Positions 7,382 through 42,738 of a stretch of DNA of 64,000 bases are shown one piece after another. Origin of the DNA: Armatimonadota bacterium (GTDB taxonomy: Bacteria; Armatimonadota; UBA5829; DSUL01); the NCBI GenBank assembly GCA_025998755.1, contig AP024674.1, forward strand, positions 3,054,162 through 3,118,161, read 5' to 3'. Position numbers and translations under genes: made by a program. Numbering within the stretch: the first letter of the stretch is position 1; every line of letters starts with the position of its first letter. The notes under the pieces were generated by a model. That model was not told the origin of the DNA. It was given only the letters and a program-made list of their open reading frames with translations, and ran no database searches.

Positions 7382-8377
7382 GTGTCTGGAATACTGTCTC
7401 AGGAGGAGATAGACGCCCTCCTTTCCGTCTATTCATCGGGTGGGGCGTCGCCGGGGAAGGCTGGCGAGGGCACCCGCTCGCGCGAGGTGCGGCTGTATGA
7501 CTTCGCGCACCCCGAGAAGTTCTCCAAGGAGCAGCTGCGGCAGCTGGAGGCGGTGCATAACAGCTTCGCATCGTCGCTGACCCATCGCCTTTCCGCAACC
7601 CTTCGCAGCACGCTGGAGGTCCGGCACACCACGCTGGACCAGTGCAGTTTCGAGGAGTATCTCAAGAGCATCCCCAACCCCACCCTTACGTCCACATTCA
7701 AGCTGGAACCGGCTGGGGTGAAGGCGGTCATTGAGGTCAACCCCAACATCGTCTTCGTGCTGGTGGACCTGATGACTGGGGGCTTCGGCGAGCCGAAGAT
7801 CACCAATCGGCCGGTGACACCCATCGAGCTGAAGCTGATGGAGAGTGTCCTGAAGACGGCGCTCTCGGAGTATCAGAGCGCCTGGGCGCAGTTCACAGAG
7901 GTCAAATGCTCGCTGGAGCGGGCGGGAAGCGATCAGATGGTGAACCCCATCGCCCGCCCGAAAGACCGGATGGTGAGCGTCTGCTTCGAGCTGCAGACCG
8001 CCTCGCAGGTGGGTCTAATCTCCCTGTGCATTCCCATCTCCGGCGTGGAGGCGCTGCTTTCATCGCTGGGTCAGAGAGGGGAGGCGGTTCAGAGCCGCGC
8101 GGATGAGCGGACGAAGATTGAGCAGCACCTGAAGGGCAGCCAGGTGGTGGCCACAGTGGTGCTGGGAACTGCCGGAGTCACGCTCCGGGACATCCTGGAT
8201 CTTGCTCCCGGCGATACGGTGCGTCTGGACCAGCCGGTGGACCGAGAGATACGACTGGCGGTGCAGGGGGTGCCCAAGTTTCACGCGGTCCCGGGCGTGC
8301 TGGGCCGCAAGCTGGCCGTGCAGCTGACGCGCACTGTGGGCCAGGACACGCAGGTTCTGGATAAAGAAGCCGCCTGA
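7382..8377 (+). CDS. fliM: flagellar motor switch protein FliM
   Basis: A 331-residue C-ring protein. GTG at 7382 after GGAGAGG gives the standard N-terminus SGILSQEEIDALLS, the CheY-phosphate binding peptide. The middle CheC-like domain includes FAHPEKFSKEQLRQLEAVH, LRSTLEVRHTTLDQCSFEEYL and LVDLMTGGFGEP, and the SpoA-type C-terminal domain covers about residues 245-320 (GSQVVATVVLGTAGVTLRDIL, LAPGDTVRLDQPV). Order and length match the family. The following gene is fliN, but only after an unusually long structured spacer. Confidence 0.95.
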   Translation: MSGILSQEEIDALLSVYSSGGASPGKAGEGTRSREVRLYDFAHPEKFSKEQLRQLEAVHNSFASSLTHRLSATLRSTLEVRHTTLDQCSFEEYLKSIPNPTLTSTFKLEPAGVKAVIEVNPNIVFVLVDLMTGGFGEPKITNRPVTPIELKLMESVLKTALSEYQSAWAQFTEVKCSLERAGSDQMVNPIARPKDRMVSVCFELQTASQVGLISLCIPISGVEALLSSLGQRGEAVQSRADERTKIEQHLKGSQVVATVVLGTAGVTLRDILDLAPGDTVRLDQPVDREIRLAVQGVPKFHAVPGVLGRKLAVQLTRTVGQDTQVLDKEAA

Positions 8378-8789
8378 ACCAGCCGAAGATTCCGCTGGAC
8401 CGTGCGGCAAATCCGCCGGTGCTCCCCGCAGAGGAGCAAGGGGAGCCCGGCAACCGGACAACAACCAGATATCACGGGTCAGGTGGGCGATCGAGCTCAA
8501 GATGACGCCGCCTGCCCGCCTCCTTCAAAGGGGGCGGGTCAGTGATACAACGGACATGACGTCCGCCCCACTTCAAGACCCGGCGCAGCATCCGAGCGCG
8601 CCCCGCCTTCCGGCCGGCGGCGCCTGACCTTCGCGCCGGGAAGACCCCGAGAAGTAGCAAAAACACGGCAACCGTAGAGACCGGGCTTCAAAGGTTCGGG
8701 AGCAGCCTGCCCAGCCGGCGGCCGCAGCCGCCGGAATCGCCAAGCTGTTCCCGCCCCGCCCGGCCGGTGCTGAGAGGGACAGACGTCGA
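8378..8789 (+). other. 412-nt hairpin-filled spacer between fliM and fliN
   Basis: No open frame of note lies here, yet inverted repeats fill most of it: 8379-8383/8394-8398 (CCAGC/GCTGG); 8404-8407/8413-8416; 8421-8427/8440-8446 (GCTCCCC/GGGGAGC); 8447-8450/8454-8457 (CCGG, loop CAA); a possible three-way junction with closing stem 8470-8475/8542-8547 (TATCAC/GTGATA) around 8480-8514 and 8515-8538; 8551-8555/8561-8565; 8665-8668/8672-8675 (ACGG, loop CAA); and a 10-bp stem 8697-8706/8744-8753 enclosing a perfect 8-bp hairpin 8715-8722/8727-8734. No T-run follows any stem, so it is not a simple terminator. It could be an untranslated regulatory RNA, a processed leader for fliN or an sRNA. GC-rich DNA forms hairpins by chance, which limits confidence. 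Confidence 0.4.
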
Positions 8790-9419
8790 ATGGGCGATCC
8801 GCTTTCGCAGGAAGAGATAGATCGTTTGCTGGCGCAAGCCGCCGGTGGAGGCGGTCAGCAGGAGCAACCGCAGGAGCCTCCGGCAGCTGGGGATCAAGAG
8901 TCCGCAGCGCCCCAAGGCGAGGCGGAGGCCACGCCGGAGCTGGAGGTCGTCAGCGAGCAGGGCGAGGCTGAGGAAGAGACTCCGGCCGCAACTCCGGCTC
9001 CGGAGCCCGAACCGCAGCCTGTGGCGCAGGCCGCCGCGTCCCGTCAGCCGAAGAAAGAGCCCTCCGTCCTCGGCGCCCGGACGTCCGCTCCCGCCGCGGC
9101 GGCCCAGAGCGTCCAGTTCGGTCCGCTTCCCGGCTCCGCGGCAGCTGTGGAGGGCGCGCCCCGGTCGCTGGATCTGTTGCTGGACATTCGCTTGCAGCTG
9201 ACAGCGGAGCTTGGGCGCAAGGAGATGACCATCCGGGAGGCGCTTTCGCTGGGGCCGGGATCGGTGCTGGAGCTGGACAAGATCGCCGGCGAGCCCGTGG
9301 ATCTTCTGGTTAACAACAAGCTTATCGCGCGTGGAGAGGTGGTGGTCATTGATGAGAACTTCGGCGTCCGCGTCACCGAGGTTGTCAGCCCCGAGGAAAG
9401 GATGGATCGCGTTGCGTAG
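8790..9419 (+). CDS. fliN: flagellar motor switch protein FliN
   Basis: A 209-residue protein. The C-terminal 75 residues are a complete SpoA domain: [59 protein letters not shown] and [12 protein letters not shown]. The N-terminus [15 protein letters not shown] copies the FliM CheY-binding peptide. Between them is a 110-residue linker rich in Ala, Pro, Glu and Gln that looks disordered. Typical FliN is about 100-140 residues, so this is long, but it lacks the CheC/CheX domain of FliY. Its end overlaps the start of fliO by 8 nt. Confidence 0.93.
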
Positions 9420-13439: not shown

Positions 13440-15506
13440 ATGCGTGAGTCCGGCGCTAAACAGCAGGGGATGATCTCCACGGACCTGGTGGCCGCTGTAG
13501 GGGCGGTGCTCATCGTCGGGATGATGGTCATCCCGCTGCCGGGATGGATGCTGGATGTGCTGCTCAGCCTGAACATCACGATGGCGCTCACCATCCTGCT
13601 GATGACGATGTACACCGTCCGCCCGCTGGACTTCTCCAGCTTCCCGTCGCTGCTGTTGATCGTCACGTTGTTCCGGCTGGCCCTGAACATCGCGGCCACA
13701 CGCCTCATTCTGCTGCACGCGGAGGCCGGGGCGGTCATTCACGCTTTCGGCTCCGTGGTGGTGGGCGGAAACTATGTGGTGGGTCTGGTGGTGTTCATCA
13801 TCCTGGTCATCATCCAGTTCGTGGTCATCACCAACGGCGCCGGCCGCGTCGCGGAGGTGGCCGCCCGGTTCACGCTGGATGCCATGCCCGGAAAGCAGAT
13901 GGCCATTGACGCCGACCTGAATGCCGGGCTCATAGACGAGGCTCAGGCCCGCGCCCGGCGCGAGAAGGTGGCTCAGGAGGCAGATTTCTACGGCGCGATG
14001 GACGGTGCCAGCAAGTTCGTCCGCGGAGACGCCATCGCCGCGGTGGTGATGATCATCATCAATATCCTGGGCGGGTTCACGGTGGGCATCCTGCAGCACA
14101 AGATGGACCTGGCCACCGCCCTGCAGACCTACACCCTGCTGACCATCGGTGAAGGGCTGGTGACGCAGATCCCCGCGCTGCTCATCTCCACGGCCACCGG
14201 TCTTATCATCACCCGCGCTTCTTCGGATGTGAACCTGGGCCGGAGCATGGTGGGCCAGATCCTGGCGCAGCCGAAAGCCATCGCCACGGCGGCCGGCGTG
14301 TTCCTGGCGCTGGGACTGGTGCCCGGGATCCCCAAAGCACCCTTCCTGCTGGTGGGGACCCTGACCGGGTTGTTCGCGATGGTCATCAGCAAACCGCCCG
14401 AGGCTCCGCCCGCCGAGGAGAAGAAGACCGAGGCTCCCAAAGCCCCGGAGAACCTGGCGTCGCTGGTGGGGGTGGACCCGCTGGTGGTGGAGATCGGGTA
14501 CGGTCTGATCTCTCTTGCGGACCGCACACAGGGCGGAGACCTGCTGGACCGCATCACCGCGCTGCGGCGTCAGCTGGCTTCCGAGTCCGGTTTCGTGGTG
14601 CCTCCCATAAGGGTGCGGGACAATCTGCAGCTGCGCCCCACCGAGTATGTCTTCCGGCTAAAGGGCGTGGAGGTTGCGCGTGGCGAGGCCTATCCGGGGC
14701 AGCTTCTGGCCATGAACCCCGCCGGAGGATCGCTGGATCTGCCGGGGCTGCGCACGAAGGAACCCGCGTTCGGACTGCCGGCTGTCTGGATCGCCGAGCA
14801 GGACCGCAGCGTGGCCGAGTCGCTGGGCTGCACGCTGGTGGATTGTACCACAGTGATCATAACCCACCTTTCCGAGGTCATCCGCTCGAACGCGGGCGAG
14901 ATACTCTCGCGGCAAGATGTGCAGGCTGTGCTGGATTCCGTCAAGGAGCGGGCCCCGGTGGTGGTGGAGGAGCTGGTGCCCGGTCTGCTGACGGTGGGCG
15001 AGGTGCAGAAGGTCATCGCCCGGCTGCTGGACGAGCGCGTGGACGTGCGCGACATGGTGACCATCATGGAGTGTCTGGCGGACTGGGCGCGTCTGACCAA
15101 GGATACCGATATCCTGGTGGAGCGCGTCCGCGAGCGCCTGGCAAGGCAGATCACCCGGCAGCACCTGGAGGCGGATGGACGGCTGTATGTCTTCACCGTG
15201 GATCCGAAGCTGGAGAAGCTGCTCTCCGAGTCCGTCCGCCAGACCGAGAACGGCCCGCGCTGCATCATAGACCCCTCCCTGCTGCAGCGGCTGCTGCTGG
15301 CCACCCGCGACTGCATGGAGAAGATGGCCCGCGAGGGGCGTCAGCCGATCGCGCTGGTGTCCCCTCCGGTGCGGCTGCATTTCAGAAGGCTTGTGGAACG
15401 CAACTTCCCGCAGCTTGTGGTGCTGTCCTACAACGAGATCGCTGCGGGGGTGAACATCGAATCGCTGGGAATGGTGAGCGTCGAATATGAAGATCAGGAA
15501 GTTTGA
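13440..15506 (+). CDS. flhA: flagellar export protein FlhA
   Basis: A 688-residue membrane protein forming the nonameric export ring. I chose ATG 13440 because GAGGG lies 9 nt upstream; an in-frame ATG at 13431 directly abuts that motif. The N-terminal 300 residues hold eight hydrophobic segments with the FHIPEP signatures: TLFRLALNIAATRLILLHAE, DAMPGKQMAIDADLNAGLID and QEADFYGAMDGASKFVRGDA. A linker with EEKKTEAPKAPEN leads to the cytoplasmic domain that docks export chaperones (VDPLVVEIGYGLISLAD, EILSRQDVQAVLDSVKE, SPPVRLHFRRLVERNFPQLV). Its end overlaps flhF by 20 nt. Confidence 0.97.
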   Translation: MRESGAKQQGMISTDLVAAVGAVLIVGMMVIPLPGWMLDVLLSLNITMALTILLMTMYTVRPLDFSSFPSLLLIVTLFRLALNIAATRLILLHAEAGAVIHAFGSVVVGGNYVVGLVVFIILVIIQFVVITNGAGRVAEVAARFTLDAMPGKQMAIDADLNAGLIDEAQARARREKVAQEADFYGAMDGASKFVRGDAIAAVVMIIINILGGFTVGILQHKMDLATALQTYTLLTIGEGLVTQIPALLISTATGLIITRASSDVNLGRSMVGQILAQPKAIATAAGVFLALGLVPGIPKAPFLLVGTLTGLFAMVISKPPEAPPAEEKKTEAPKAPENLASLVGVDPLVVEIGYGLISLADRTQGGDLLDRITALRRQLASESGFVVPPIRVRDNLQLRPTEYVFRLKGVEVARGEAYPGQLLAMNPAGGSLDLPGLRTKEPAFGLPAVWIAEQDRSVAESLGCTLVDCTTVIITHLSEVIRSNAGEILSRQDVQAVLDSVKERAPVVVEELVPGLLTVGEVQKVIARLLDERVDVRDMVTIMECLADWARLTKDTDILVERVRERLARQITRQHLEADGRLYVFTVDPKLEKLLSESVRQTENGPRCIIDPSLLQRLLLATRDCMEKMAREGRQPIALVSPPVRLHFRRLVERNFPQLVVLSYNEIAAGVNIESLGMVSVEYEDQEV

Positions 15507-16563
15507 AGCGGACACACTGCGCGAGGCTATGGAGCAGGCCCGCCGGGAGCTGGGTGACAACGCCGTCATCCTGAACACGCGCGAGGTGCGTCCTCTGCCC
15601 GGCGCGCGGACCGGAGGGCGGCCGCGGGTGGAGTTGGTGGCCGCGGTGGACACGGGACCGGCGGTGCTTACCGGCCCGGAGCCGCCTGCGCCGCGTGAGG
15701 CAGAGACGGGACGGGATCAGGAAGCATCGCCGGCTCTGGCCGCCGAAGTGGCCGCCCTACGGGAAGCCCTGGTCTCTCTGGTGGGAGAGGGCGTGCTGGT
15801 GGCTCACACGAAAGCGGCTCCCGGTCCCGAGCGCAGAATGCGGGACGCAGGCGTGGATGCAGCTCTGGCCGGGCAGATCGCCCGGTCGCTTCAGGAATGC
15901 TCTTCGCCCGAAGAGGCCGCTGCGCAGTGGGAATGCCTGTTCTCCTGCGCTCCGCCGTCGCTGCCCGAAAGCGGGCCGGCTGTCTGGGCGCTGGTGGGTC
16001 CGACAGGAGCGGGCAAGACCAGCTGCGCCGCCCGTCTGGCCGCAGCCTACCGGTTCCGGGAGAAGCGCTCCGTGGCGCTCATCTCCTGCGACGGGGTGCG
16101 CATCGGGGCGCCGGAGCAGCTCCAGCGCATCGCCTCCACCATGGGAACTCCCTTTGAGCTGTGCCTGGATGCATCCTCGCTCTCGGAGGCCCTGGACCGC
16201 TGCTCCTCGCACGATATCGTTCTGGTGGACACCCCCGGGGGCCCGCCGCGCGACGATGGCTTTCTGAAGGGTCTGCGGTCGCTCCTTAGAGACGGCCGCA
16301 TCAGTGCGCACCTGGTGCTGCCCGCCAACATCTCCTGCGAGGCTCGCAGAATCGCCGTGGAGGCGTTCTCGGCGCTGGATCCGCAGCGGGTCATCTTGAC
16401 CAAGCTGGACGAAGCAGGCAGCAGCATCCCTCTGCTGGCCATCTCTCAGGAGATTCCGGCCGCCGTGTCCTTCGTCTCTGAGGGACAGGAGCTTGCCGGA
16501 GGACTGATGCCCGCAGACGCCCGGTCTCTTGCGCTGCGGGTGATGGAGGAGCTCATGGGATGA
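15487..16563 (+). CDS. flhF: flagellar SRP-like GTPase FlhF
   Basis: A 358-residue SRP-family GTPase that sets flagellum number or position in known bacteria. The N-terminal B domain starts MKIRKFEADTLREAMEQARR. The G domain (about 165-358) has the P-loop GPTGAGKTSCAARLA, a CDGVRIGAPEQLQRIA segment in place of the usual DTYRxAAxEQL, a DTPGG G3 motif in place of DTAG, and LTKLDEAGS (G4). The G2 and G3 substitutions are slightly unusual. It overlaps flhA by 20 nt. The usual partner flhG does not follow; a small membrane protein does. Confidence 0.92.
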   Translation: MKIRKFEADTLREAMEQARRELGDNAVILNTREVRPLPGARTGGRPRVELVAAVDTGPAVLTGPEPPAPREAETGRDQEASPALAAEVAALREALVSLVGEGVLVAHTKAAPGPERRMRDAGVDAALAGQIARSLQECSSPEEAAAQWECLFSCAPPSLPESGPAVWALVGPTGAGKTSCAARLAAAYRFREKRSVALISCDGVRIGAPEQLQRIASTMGTPFELCLDASSLSEALDRCSSHDIVLVDTPGGPPRDDGFLKGLRSLLRDGRISAHLVLPANISCEARRIAVEAFSALDPQRVILTKLDEAGSSIPLLAISQEIPAAVSFVSEGQELAGGLMPADARSLALRVMEELMG

Positions 16564-16600
16564 GCAAAGCGGGAGTACAGACGGGCGGAGGAAGGCAAAG

Positions 16601-16837
16601 GTGAACGAAATGCGCTCGCTTTACGCGTGGATCGGTACCATGCTCGCCACCTGCTGCTTTGCCGTGACGCTATTCGTCTGCGTGTCAGGGGGCCAGGATC
16701 TGCTGATCTCCGTCCTGAAGTCCATCGCCGTTTTCTTCGCAGTCCGCTACGTGGCGGGGGTATTCGGCGGGCTGGTGCTGTCTCTGGAGCAGGGGAGCAG
16801 GAGCGAGACTCCCGCCCCGGGTGAGGATGCCGGCTGA
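16601..16837 (+). CDS. 78-residue two-helix membrane protein of the flagellar operon
   Basis: A small protein starting at GTG, in line with the operon, with its stop codon overlapping the fliA start (TGATG). Two hydrophobic segments are clear: about residues 8-28 (WIGTMLATCCFAVTLFVCVS) and 33-58 (LLISVLKSIAVFFAVRYVAG). The short tail is acidic and Pro-rich. I do not recognise a family. The exact coupling to fliA and its place where flhG normally lies make a flagellar role likely, but this is inferred from position only. Confidence 0.65.
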   Translation: MNEMRSLYAWIGTMLATCCFAVTLFVCVSGGQDLLISVLKSIAVFFAVRYVAGVFGGLVLSLEQGSRSETPAPGEDAG

Positions 16838-17622
16838 TGGCTGTCACCACACGGACCGTTGACGCGCGCGATCTCTGGACGCGCTACAAAAGACAGGGCG
16901 ACGAAAACGCCCGCCTGGAGCTGATCGAGCGTTACGCTTATCTGGCGCGAGCGGGGGCCGAGCGGCTGCGCCTGCCGCCGCATGCCGCGTTTTCGCAGGA
17001 CGATCTTTACGGGTACGCCGTCCTGGGACTGATAGACGCCATCGAGAAATTCGACCCGGACAAGGGAAAGCCGTTCGAGGCGTATGCGCCGGTGCGCATC
17101 AGGGGGGCCATCTCCGACGCTTTGAGAGGCCTGGACTGGTTGCCCCGCTCGGTCCGTCAGAACGAGACCCGTCTTCGGGAGGCTATGGCGCGGATCGAGA
17201 TGCGCGAAGGACGCTCGGCCACCGACGCGGAGCTTTGCGCCGAACTCGGCATGAGCGAAGACGAGCTGGGGGATCTGTTGCAGGCGGCTAACGCATCGGC
17301 ACAGCAGAGTCTGGAAGAGATCATTTCCGAACTGGGAGACCTCAATTTTGCGGGGGTGGGCGCCGATAATTCCGGTACGGACCCCGAGCGGGCGGCGGAG
17401 AACTCGCAGGTCCGGCGGCTTCTGGTGGAGGCGATCGAAGAGCTGCCGGAAAACGAGAAGACCGTCATCAGTCTGTATTACTTCGAGGACCTGACGCTCA
17501 AGGAGATCGGCCGCGTGCTGGGGGTGACGGAGTCCCGGGCCTGTCAGTTGCACACCCGGGCGGTGCTGAAGCTGCAGACCCGGCTGGCCTGCTGGCTTGA
17601 TGTGATGTTCATGGCGGCGTAG
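16837..17622 (+). CDS. fliA: flagellar sigma factor FliA/SigD (sigma28 family)
   Basis: A 261-residue sigma factor that directs RNA polymerase to late flagellar genes. It contains region 2 (LIERYAYLARAGAERLRLPP, DDLYGYAVLGLIDAIEKFDP, GKPFEAYAPVRIRGAISDAL), the hallmark DWLPRSVR turn of the FliA/WhiG group, region 3 (AELCAELGMSEDELGDLLQA) and region 4 with a helix-turn-helix (LPENEKTVISLYYFEDLTLK, EIGRVLGVTESRACQLHTRA). The start overlaps the upstream small gene. An anti-sigma FlgM is not visible in the window. Confidence 0.96.
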   Translation: MAVTTRTVDARDLWTRYKRQGDENARLELIERYAYLARAGAERLRLPPHAAFSQDDLYGYAVLGLIDAIEKFDPDKGKPFEAYAPVRIRGAISDALRGLDWLPRSVRQNETRLREAMARIEMREGRSATDAELCAELGMSEDELGDLLQAANASAQQSLEEIISELGDLNFAGVGADNSGTDPERAAENSQVRRLLVEAIEELPENEKTVISLYYFEDLTLKEIGRVLGVTESRACQLHTRAVLKLQTRLACWLDVMFMAA

Positions 17623-19567: not shown

Positions 19568-20243
19568 CGCCCAGCCACAGTCTGGCCTGAGCGTTCATCG
19601 GCTCAGTTTCCAGTACCGCTTCCAGAAGGTTGGCGGCTCGGGGCGGATCTGAATCCAGCACGGCGATGGCCAGCCCCACCCGGGGCTTCGTCCAGCGGGG
19701 AGCCAGGGCGCTGGCCTTGATGTACCACTCTTCGGCGCATTTCAGATCCCCTGAGAGCTGGCAGGCATCCGCCAGGAGATTCGCCAGTACAGCGTTGCTG
19801 GGATGCTTGTGGACCGCGTCACGGAGAAGCTGCAAAGACGTATCGGGTCCTGCGCGCTCTGGCGTCTTCGGGGTCGACAGGACCAGCGGCCGGGGCGTCT
19901 TCAAGCCGCGCTGCACGGCCGAGTTCTCGGCCGAGTCGCGCAGTCTGCGCACCACACCTGCGCCGGGGAACATCCGCAAGACAGCGTCCAGGTGCGGGAT
20001 GGCGCGCACTGGATCCTTCATCTGCAGAAGAGTCACCGCCAACGCCAGACGAAGCCCCGCGTCCCCCGGCGCGGATTCCACCTTTCGCTCCAGCAACCGG
20101 GCGGCCCGCGGATAATCGCCCCGGGCGAAGGTAGCGTCCGCGTCTGCCGGCGGATTCTCGCGCATCGGTGCTGCACCGCTCACCCCGCCCGCTGCAACTG
20201 CGGCCAGAATCAACAGTATCAGCGCCCTGCAAGGAAACTTCAT
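19314..20243 (-). CDS. TPR-repeat secreted protein, N-terminal part (gene frameshifted near 19440)
   Basis: This frame starts at ATG 20243 with a signal peptide (MKFPCRALILLILAAVAAGG) and TPR repeats of about 34 residues: ATFARGDYPRAARLLERKVE, ADACQLSGDLKCAEEWYIKA, LWLGDAYARLGRMDDAMRCY. Near 19440 the repeat text stops at VRIGALLVRNNQ and continues in another frame with YPRALEEFQQASEQDPGN, so one extra base (or two missing) lies in or near a run of five C on the minus strand. The intact gene would span 18551-20243, about 563 residues. It follows the sigma/anti-sigma pair by 6 nt and is probably in their operon. A sequencing error or a true inactivating mutation are both possible. Confidence 0.8.
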   Translation of the reverse strand: MKFPCRALILLILAAVAAGGVSGAAPMRENPPADADATFARGDYPRAARLLERKVESAPGDAGLRLALAVTLLQMKDPVRAIPHLDAVLRMFPGAGVVRRLRDSAENSAVQRGLKTPRPLVLSTPKTPERAGPDTSLQLLRDAVHKHPSNAVLANLLADACQLSGDLKCAEEWYIKASALAPRWTKPRVGLAIAVLDSDPPRAANLLEAVLETEPMNAQARLWLGDAYARLGRMDDAMRCYRAAEAIPETRSDAKVRIGALLVRNNQVPPRARRVSAGFGAGSGQCGGACRSSAVQCAVEPPRGGPSGH

Positions 20244-35723: not shown

Positions 35724-35753
35724 CGCCGGGCTGAGCATTCACAACGAAAGCAG

Positions 35754-35787
35754 GGCCGGGACCCCGGTGGTCCCGGCCCGTTTCTGC
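35754..35787 (+). terminator. intrinsic terminator after the Ig-like protein gene
   Basis: Perfect 11-bp arms GGGCCGGGACC (35754-35764) and GGTCCCGGCCC (35770-35780), 5-nt loop, then GTTTCT. The T-run is short and interrupted, so termination may be partial. Confidence 0.75.
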
Positions 35788-35800
35788 TTCGAGGTGTCTC

Positions 35801-35860
35801 AACTGAGAGGGAAGAGTCATGACCCCTGTAAGGTCTCAGTTGGAACCCCTGTTGCAGGGG
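35801..35860 (+). other. two adjacent hairpins in the long spacer after the Ig-like gene
   Basis: The 465-nt stretch 35724-36188 holds no gene. After the terminator, CAACTGAG (35801-35808) pairs with CTCAGTTG (35835-35842) across a 26-nt loop, then CCCCTG (35846-35851) pairs with CAGGGG (35855-35860) with a TTG loop. A further perfect 8-bp hairpin GCGTTCCC/GGGAACGC lies at 36139-36146/36161-36168, directly before the ribosome binding site of the next gene. These could be structured leader elements. Function unknown. Confidence 0.4.
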
Positions 35861-35888
35861 CTAAAACTCAGCCCTCAGCACCTCTAAG

Positions 35889-35903
35889 GTAATGGTCCAT
35901 TAC
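35889..35903. promoter_or_regulatory. 15-bp perfect palindrome, candidate operator
   Basis: GTAATGG-T-CCATTAC: 7-bp arms around a single T. It lies 286 nt before the Tat oxidoreductase gene and roughly one -35 distance before a TATAGA at 35917-35922. This is a plausible regulator-binding site for the following gene; the binding protein is unknown. Confidence 0.45.
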
Positions 35904-36188
35904 GCACCACCTCCTTTATAGAGTGGTTGGTTTGTCCGGCCGGCCCGCCCGATGGCGGACCTTCCGCAGGGTGGGGCGAAGCCGCACTCCTGCCATGGCT
36001 AACATTCGCGCGTGCTCCAGGATTCCCCTCCTGTCTGAAAGATTATCGGCAGGACGGCGTTGTTCCACTCGCGCAGGAAACCGCAGGAATGCAGGAGAAG
36101 GTTAGTGGATACGTGGGCAGGCTTTCGGACGTCTTCCGGCGTTCCCCCGCGGCGTCCGTTGGGAACGCAAAAAGAAGGAGCGATAGCG

Positions 36189-42030: not shown

Positions 42031-42738
42031 TTGAAGCGCACCAGGCCATCTGGCTTCACATTGATCGAGTTGCTAGTGGTCATTGCCATCATCGCCATCC
42101 TGGCGGCCATCCTCTTTCCGGTGTTCGCCAACGCCCGGGCACGCTCTCGCACTGCCCGATGCGCGGCCCATCAGAAGGAGCTGATGCAATCGGTGATGAT
42201 GTATATGGACGACTACAAGGACCGCCTCCCCAGCTACCAGTATCTGAGCTGGCGCGGGGACCTTCCGCCGCTTTACTTCCCTTACGTGAAGGACCATAAC
42301 ATCACCATCTGCTCCGAGAAGATGGCCTATGCGTGGAATGAGTGCCTGGTGGATTGGCCGCTGGCGTCGGATTTCTACGCAGACAGGCGCGGAGGGACTC
42401 CGGAACTGCAGGTCCACCCGCCGCTCTACGTGCTGCCTCCCCAGAGCAAGGGTCGGCCTATGAGCACCATCCACTCTCCTGCCGCCACGCCGGCCTTTAT
42501 GTGCTCATTTCGGCACCACGTGGGTCCGGACGGGAGGGCTCGCGGCTACGGTTGGGGGGCAGATGACGCCATCAATCCCAGCCGGATGCTGAACAATCAC
42601 CAGGGCGGTGCGAACTACGCCTTTCTGGACGGGCATGTTCAGTGGTACCGCCCCCAGAACGCCAAAATCCTGATGCCCACGAAGGGATTGGACTACGATG
42701 GGGACGGCACGTTCGGAGACGAGACGGTGATGCGTTGA
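42031..42738 (+). CDS. prepilin-type N-terminal methylation domain protein
   Basis: A 235-residue pseudopilin-like protein with TTG start after AAAGGGGG. The N-terminus RTRPSGFTLIELLVVIAIIA is a classic class III prepilin signal: cleavage after Gly and methylation of the new Phe are expected. The rest (RTARCAAHQKELMQSVMMYM) and the C-terminal segment NHQGGANYAFLDGHVQWYRP match the DUF1559-like or H-X9-DG group common in Planctomycetes and Armatimonadetes. The sulfatase gene overlaps its stop (TGATG). It is likely to be part of a surface pseudopilus or secreted product; function uncertain. Confidence 0.88.
   Translation: MKRTRPSGFTLIELLVVIAIIAILAAILFPVFANARARSRTARCAAHQKELMQSVMMYMDDYKDRLPSYQYLSWRGDLPPLYFPYVKDHNITICSEKMAYAWNECLVDWPLASDFYADRRGGTPELQVHPPLYVLPPQSKGRPMSTIHSPAATPAFMCSFRHHVGPDGRARGYGWGADDAINPSRMLNNHQGGANYAFLDGHVQWYRPQNAKILMPTKGLDYDGDGTFGDETVMR

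Follow-up and report, generated by a model that had tools for sequence, protein, structure and literature searches.

Flagellar switch proteins are required in fixed, unequal amounts, with solved C-rings giving a FliM:FliN ratio of 34:102 in Salmonella (PMC11087270) and of 1:3 in Thermotoga (PMC4832279). As the C-ring of well-studied bacteria takes up about three times as much FliN as FliM, a separate control of fliN would be useful. In Shigella the same need is met by Spa33, with more FliN-like than FliM-like subunits; however, in this case alternative translation inside one gene is used and no leader RNA is involved (PMC4832279). Among structured RNAs, the c-di-GMP riboswitches (GEMM-I and c-di-GMP-II) are leaders with a multi-stem core and conserved loop letters that precede flagellar or motility genes, and the flg-Rhizobiales RNA motif (RF01736), a candidate structured RNA whose name suggests flagellar genes, is listed for the Rhizobiales (PMC2864571). 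The open-access literature yielded no comparable flagellar leader and no leader RNA that sets the FliM:FliN ratio. In this study, we describe a spacer between fliM and fliN that may well be a lineage-specific, cis-acting structured 5' or internal leader RNA for the stretch of the operon that comprises fliN, fliO and fliP.

The stretch of DNA analysed here (the window; 64,000 nt of an Armatimonadota genome, contig AP024674.1) holds part of a flagellar gene cluster with flbD, motility stator-like genes, fliL, fliM, fliN, fliO and fliP, together with fliQ, fliR, flhB, flhA and the genes for an SRP-type GTPase and a sigma factor. The fliM gene (7382–8377, + strand; Pfam FliM, 6.6e-47, and FliMN_C) lies in a frame open from 7346, and we propose GTG 7382 as its start on the basis of GGAGAGGA just before it. 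The fliN gene (8790–9419, + strand; Pfam FliMN_C, 3.3e-26) is preceded by a likely Shine–Dalgarno region, GAGGGAC, at 8774–8780 on the same strand. With the fliM stop at 8377 and the fliN start at 8790, exactly 412 nt lie in between (8378–8789, + strand), and it is this spacer that we propose to be the fliN leader. The window's genome (G000) was compared with one other genome of the same genus (G001), in which the spacer has a gap-free homologue, with a genome from another genus of the same family (G002) and with a further genome of the family that is 80% complete (G003). A preliminary description of the locus had stated that the spacer holds no gene, and this was borne out: all frames contain stops, and the substitutions relative to G001 show no codon periodicity (15/14/12). 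A decayed or hidden gene is ruled out, since no open frame runs through the spacer and periodicity is absent; a 64-aa frame on the minus strand is probably retained merely through conservation of the DNA. The folding comparison that had been proposed at the same time was carried out, and the spacer folds at -201.4 kcal/mol as against -172.9 (SD 6.3) for dinucleotide shuffles (z -4.55), with 0 of 100 shuffles equalling it. An Rfam search with the window and the G000, G001 and G002 loci gave no match at the gathering cut-off, and the best sub-threshold matches (E ≤ 10) were eukaryotic or due to chance, none of them being credible. A displaced RNase P RNA is ruled out, as this RNA sits elsewhere in G000, G001 and G002, and so is a displaced 6S RNA, which sits elsewhere in G000 and G002. 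The presence of one copy per genome, and of none in phages, plasmids or viral contigs, rules out a mobile element or repeat.

In the alignment with G001, the spacer is 90% identical without a gap across the 412 nt, and its divergence is uneven, with 18 of 78 nt changed at 8378–8455, three of 135 (2.2%) in the core at 8456–8590, six of 87 at 8591–8677 and 14 of 112 at 8678–8789. The conserved block at 8456–8677 (+ strand) has nine changes in 222 nt. Divergence from G001 for comparison is 19% at fliM third codon positions and 13.8% in other spacers, the latter taken from a rough gene call and probably including some coding sequence. Three or fewer changes per 135 nt are found in only 0.4% of stretches of that length when the 13.5–17 kb segment is left out. 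The core differs from G001 at three neighbouring positions, all inside the loop of a hairpin, P3, at 8525–8528, and nine of the pairs predicted in the G000 fold are broken in G001, compared with 14 expected by random placement (P 0.018). The changes in the spacer avoid stems, and the constraint goes far beyond that of the surroundings. Elsewhere in the window, the segment at 13535–17045 (flhA, the SRP-type GTPase gene and part of a sigma factor gene) is 98% identical to G001, most other aligned segments being 83–91% identical, and could reflect a recent exchange or an assembly effect. Divergence from G001 is also lowered in the intergenic stretches 35724–35939 (7.4%) and 19568–19802 (7.7%), which are possible regulatory regions, and the N-terminal prepilin segment at 42052–42139 (GFTLIELLVVIAIIAILAAILFPVFA) has more than 20 similar copies in G001, that is, a large prepilin-type family.

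Model matches and local alignment with G002 delimit a core common to G000, G001 and G002 at 8475–8582, which like all its parts is given here on the + strand. It is predicted to be closed by P1, composed of P1a (CGGGUC/GACCCG, 8475–8480/8577–8582) and P1b (GUGG/CCAC, 8483–8486/8568–8571) with a predicted internal loop, AG/UUCAA, between them. Next come the predicted P2 (GCGAUC-GAGCUCAA-GAU-GA-CGC, 8487–8492/8501–8503+8506–8508), the P3 hairpin (8515–8524/8529–8538, loop 8525–8528), which is a variable arm, and the predicted P4 (GGAC-AUGAC-GUCC, 8552–8555/8561–8564). The P2 loop, GA bulge and 3' strand make up the sequence GCUCAAGAUGACGCC at 8495–8509, which is identical in the three genomes, and the P4 hairpin CGGACAUGACGUCCG with CCCCACUU (8551–8576) is near-invariant, reading CGGACA.GA.GUCC.CCCCACUU. 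In G002, P1 is formed by CGGGUCUGGUGGG/CCCCACUUGAGACCUG, both strands being kept despite 34 nt more separation, an additional hairpin precedes P2, and P3 is a 36-nt hairpin of different sequence, the P3 hairpins of both genomes folding much better than shuffled sequence (z -5.0 in G002, -4.5 in G000). The structural model is based on three sequences, of which two are closely related, and contains a single true compensatory change. This change, the only complete one, falls outside the core, which is nearly invariant and shows almost no covariation. P1 does not appear in the minimum-energy fold; imposing the core fold costs 1.7 kcal/mol in G000, 0.4 in G001 and 7.5 in G002.

The genome from the second genus is informative for the association with fliN. 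In G002, fliM and fliN are on different contigs, with fliL-fliM on one (G002:C29 (L041)) and fliN-fliO-fliP on the other (G002:C16 (L048)), which indicates that, within the family, fliM and fliN have been either separated or brought together. In several relatives from a different family, the gene before fliN seems to be fliL instead. A divergent glyS gene (glycyl-tRNA synthetase) adjoins fliN in G002, the two sharing a spacer of roughly 500 nt, and therefore the fliN operon of this genome needs its own promoter within that spacer. The counterpart of the 8475–8582 core shares the strand of fliN and precedes the gene by about 210 nt, and GCTCAAGATGACGCC and CGGACACGATGTCCACCCCACTTGAGACC are found there in the order and on the strand seen in the window. 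The local alignment scores 53, compared with a shuffle mean of 28 and maximum of 50, and 0 of 2000 shuffles reach it. Using a covariance model made from G000 and G001 only, the G002 site ranked first after the model's own sequences (23 bits, E 0.011) in a search of 191 kb that contained about 25 further fliM/fliN loci, and a sequence-only model likewise picked it up; run over the whole G002 genome, the G000 and G001 model did not report the site, which was presumably stopped at the first filter. Model R1 includes an edited G002 sequence, from which the extra hairpin and 6 nt were removed and in which two N were placed, and model R2 was built without G002, which avoids circularity. The three-sequence model found one confident site each in G000, G001 and G002 and no further element among 291 genomes of the phylum. 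In the 80% complete G003 genome, fliM, fliN and the element are all absent, and in other families of the class the spacers upstream of fliN are short and lack the element. A scan of genome contigs with FliN returned unrelated bacteria only, and weak DNA matches of 25–36 nt in other families were judged to be chance. The element, which G002 retains upstream of fliN with fliM located elsewhere, therefore seems tied to fliN and not to the fliM-fliN junction. The view of the preliminary description that the spacer contains an uncharacterised structured RNA is well supported by the lack of an Rfam match, the strong non-coding constraint and the homologue in a second genus; the two outcomes named there as speaking against it, a fold no better than shuffled sequence and stems lost while the flanking genes are kept, were not what we observed.

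All helices listed in that description can be drawn in the window sequence, and conservation then separates them. The junction placed at 8470–8547 has a closing stem, UAUCAC/GUGAUA, that is invariant in G001 and has no counterpart in G002, and the closing stem common to all three genomes is instead P1, at 8475–8582. Of the 3' stem-loop at 8697–8753 (+ strand), the base of the outer stem is kept in G001 and the inner part is lost: pairs 8705/8745, 8706/8744, 8710/8739, 8717/8732 and 8722/8727 are broken, and the inner hairpin at 8711–8737 is short of two pairs. Two short hairpins with the same CAA loop had been thought to show a compensating change in their closing pair; we reject them as homologous copies, as there is no sign of homology and one of the loops, 8451–8453, is unconserved, reading CGC in G001. 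A 5' hairpin that had not been singled out, with a 12-bp stem (GCCGG.GCUCCCC/GGGGAGC.CCGGC, 8415–8451, + strand) and a fast-changing apical loop, retains every changed pair in G001, with 8421/8446 altered on both sides from G-C to A-U and 8425/8442 and 8417/8449 from C-G to U-G.

A conserved structure is thus found 5' of fliN, on its strand, in G000, G001 and G002, with differing adjacency to fliM, as is characteristic of a cis-regulatory leader. Since the element keeps fliN, its strand and its closeness to the gene, we consider a cis-acting fliN leader likelier than a separate small RNA, a DNA control region or an element for mRNA stability. The approximately 220 conserved nt, the compact fold, the single copy per genome and the position in the spacer beside glyS in G002 would fit an independent small RNA gene that has a promoter of its own, acts elsewhere and precedes fliN for historical reasons. 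However, fliN is the constant neighbour, in the same orientation, across two genera with differing upstream neighbours, and a scan for simple promoter-like and terminator-like sites, flagellar sigma factors lying outside its scope, found none on the + strand of the window spacer; we regard such a gene as unlikely. It might also be that the transcript is cleaved between fliM and fliN and that protective stems lengthen the life of the fliN part, which would agree with the strong hairpins at both spacer ends, with a stem at 8415–8451 that is kept in G001 as its apical loop changes, and with the unequal need for FliM and FliN (PMC11087270, PMC4832279). A plain protective stem would nevertheless not need GCUCAAGAUGACGCC to be invariant across genera, and the element is kept even where fliN heads its own operon, as in G002, and a processing role appears to us likewise improbable.

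Control could also be exerted at the DNA level, if the conserved block held a promoter of the fliN operon or sites for an activator, with folding as a by-product of GC-rich dyads. The fliN promoter of G002 must fall in the same spacer, P4 and UAUCAC/GUGAUA double as DNA dyads, and the core is conserved in sequence with pairs that hardly vary. Against this, changes avoid the predicted pairs and one pair is altered on both sides, P3 of G002 is still a hairpin with a different sequence, and the P1 strands are both retained at the greater distance, which leaves this explanation with quite a small chance. Finally, stable folds come cheaply at the 68% GC of the spacer, and the counterpart spacers fold at z values of only -2.8 (G001) and -2.5 (G002), as might be seen if the spacer were functionless, being either ordinary GC-rich sequence or a decayed gene. 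With core divergence sixfold below that of the roughly called other spacers, 412 nt without gaps and a cross-genus homologue, we consider this extremely improbable.

If the spacer is a fliN leader, it would be transcribed together with fliN, fold as drawn and act in cis on fliN and the genes behind it. The predicted folds point to two competing forms, in which the P1b 5' strand GGUGGG would pair either with CCCAC at 8568–8572 or with a local partner, which is GCCGCCU in G000 and GCCACC in G002; the predicted energies of both forms are close in G000 and G001, but not in G002, which suggests a two-state element. One could speculate that a protein or small ligand, by binding to the P2 and P4 motifs, decides between the forms, and that this choice might be relayed to the fliN ribosome-binding site through complementarity with P4. 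The P4 3' strand GUCC is complementary to GGAC of the fliN Shine–Dalgarno region in both genera, and this pairing has partial probability in the predicted ensemble (G000 and G002). Constrained folding with a forced core gave no clear opening of the Shine–Dalgarno region, and for want of such a release of the ribosome site we do not take a P4-to-Shine–Dalgarno switch beyond a hypothesis.

These observations are compatible with a leader acting on or with the fliN operon in the control of the FliM:FliN ratio, and a conserved leader travelling with fliN would be a concrete control point. Being an orphan with an invariant core, from a lineage that has been poorly sampled, the RNA is in addition a candidate for a new ligand- or protein-binding class. 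It is possible, though rather doubtful, that this RNA represents a riboswitch or protein-sensing leader class that is new and confined to the family. Its P1–P4 core, built around the invariant GCUCAAGAUGACGCC loop and the GGACA.GA.GUCC hairpin, would then respond to a motility signal or to free switch-complex protein and adjust fliN (with fliO and fliP) independently of fliM. The proposed leader shares with the c-di-GMP riboswitches its position, multi-stem core and conserved loop letters; unlike them, it has no Rfam match at gathering and no credible one at E ≤ 10, and the conserved letters and helices of GEMM differ from those of its core. With the flg-Rhizobiales motif it shares the confinement to one bacterial group, but it does not match that family in Rfam and comes from an unrelated lineage. 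By role only, it is like the autogenous leaders of the ribosomal protein type, in which a conserved structured core precedes the gene for a part of an assembly of fixed stoichiometry.
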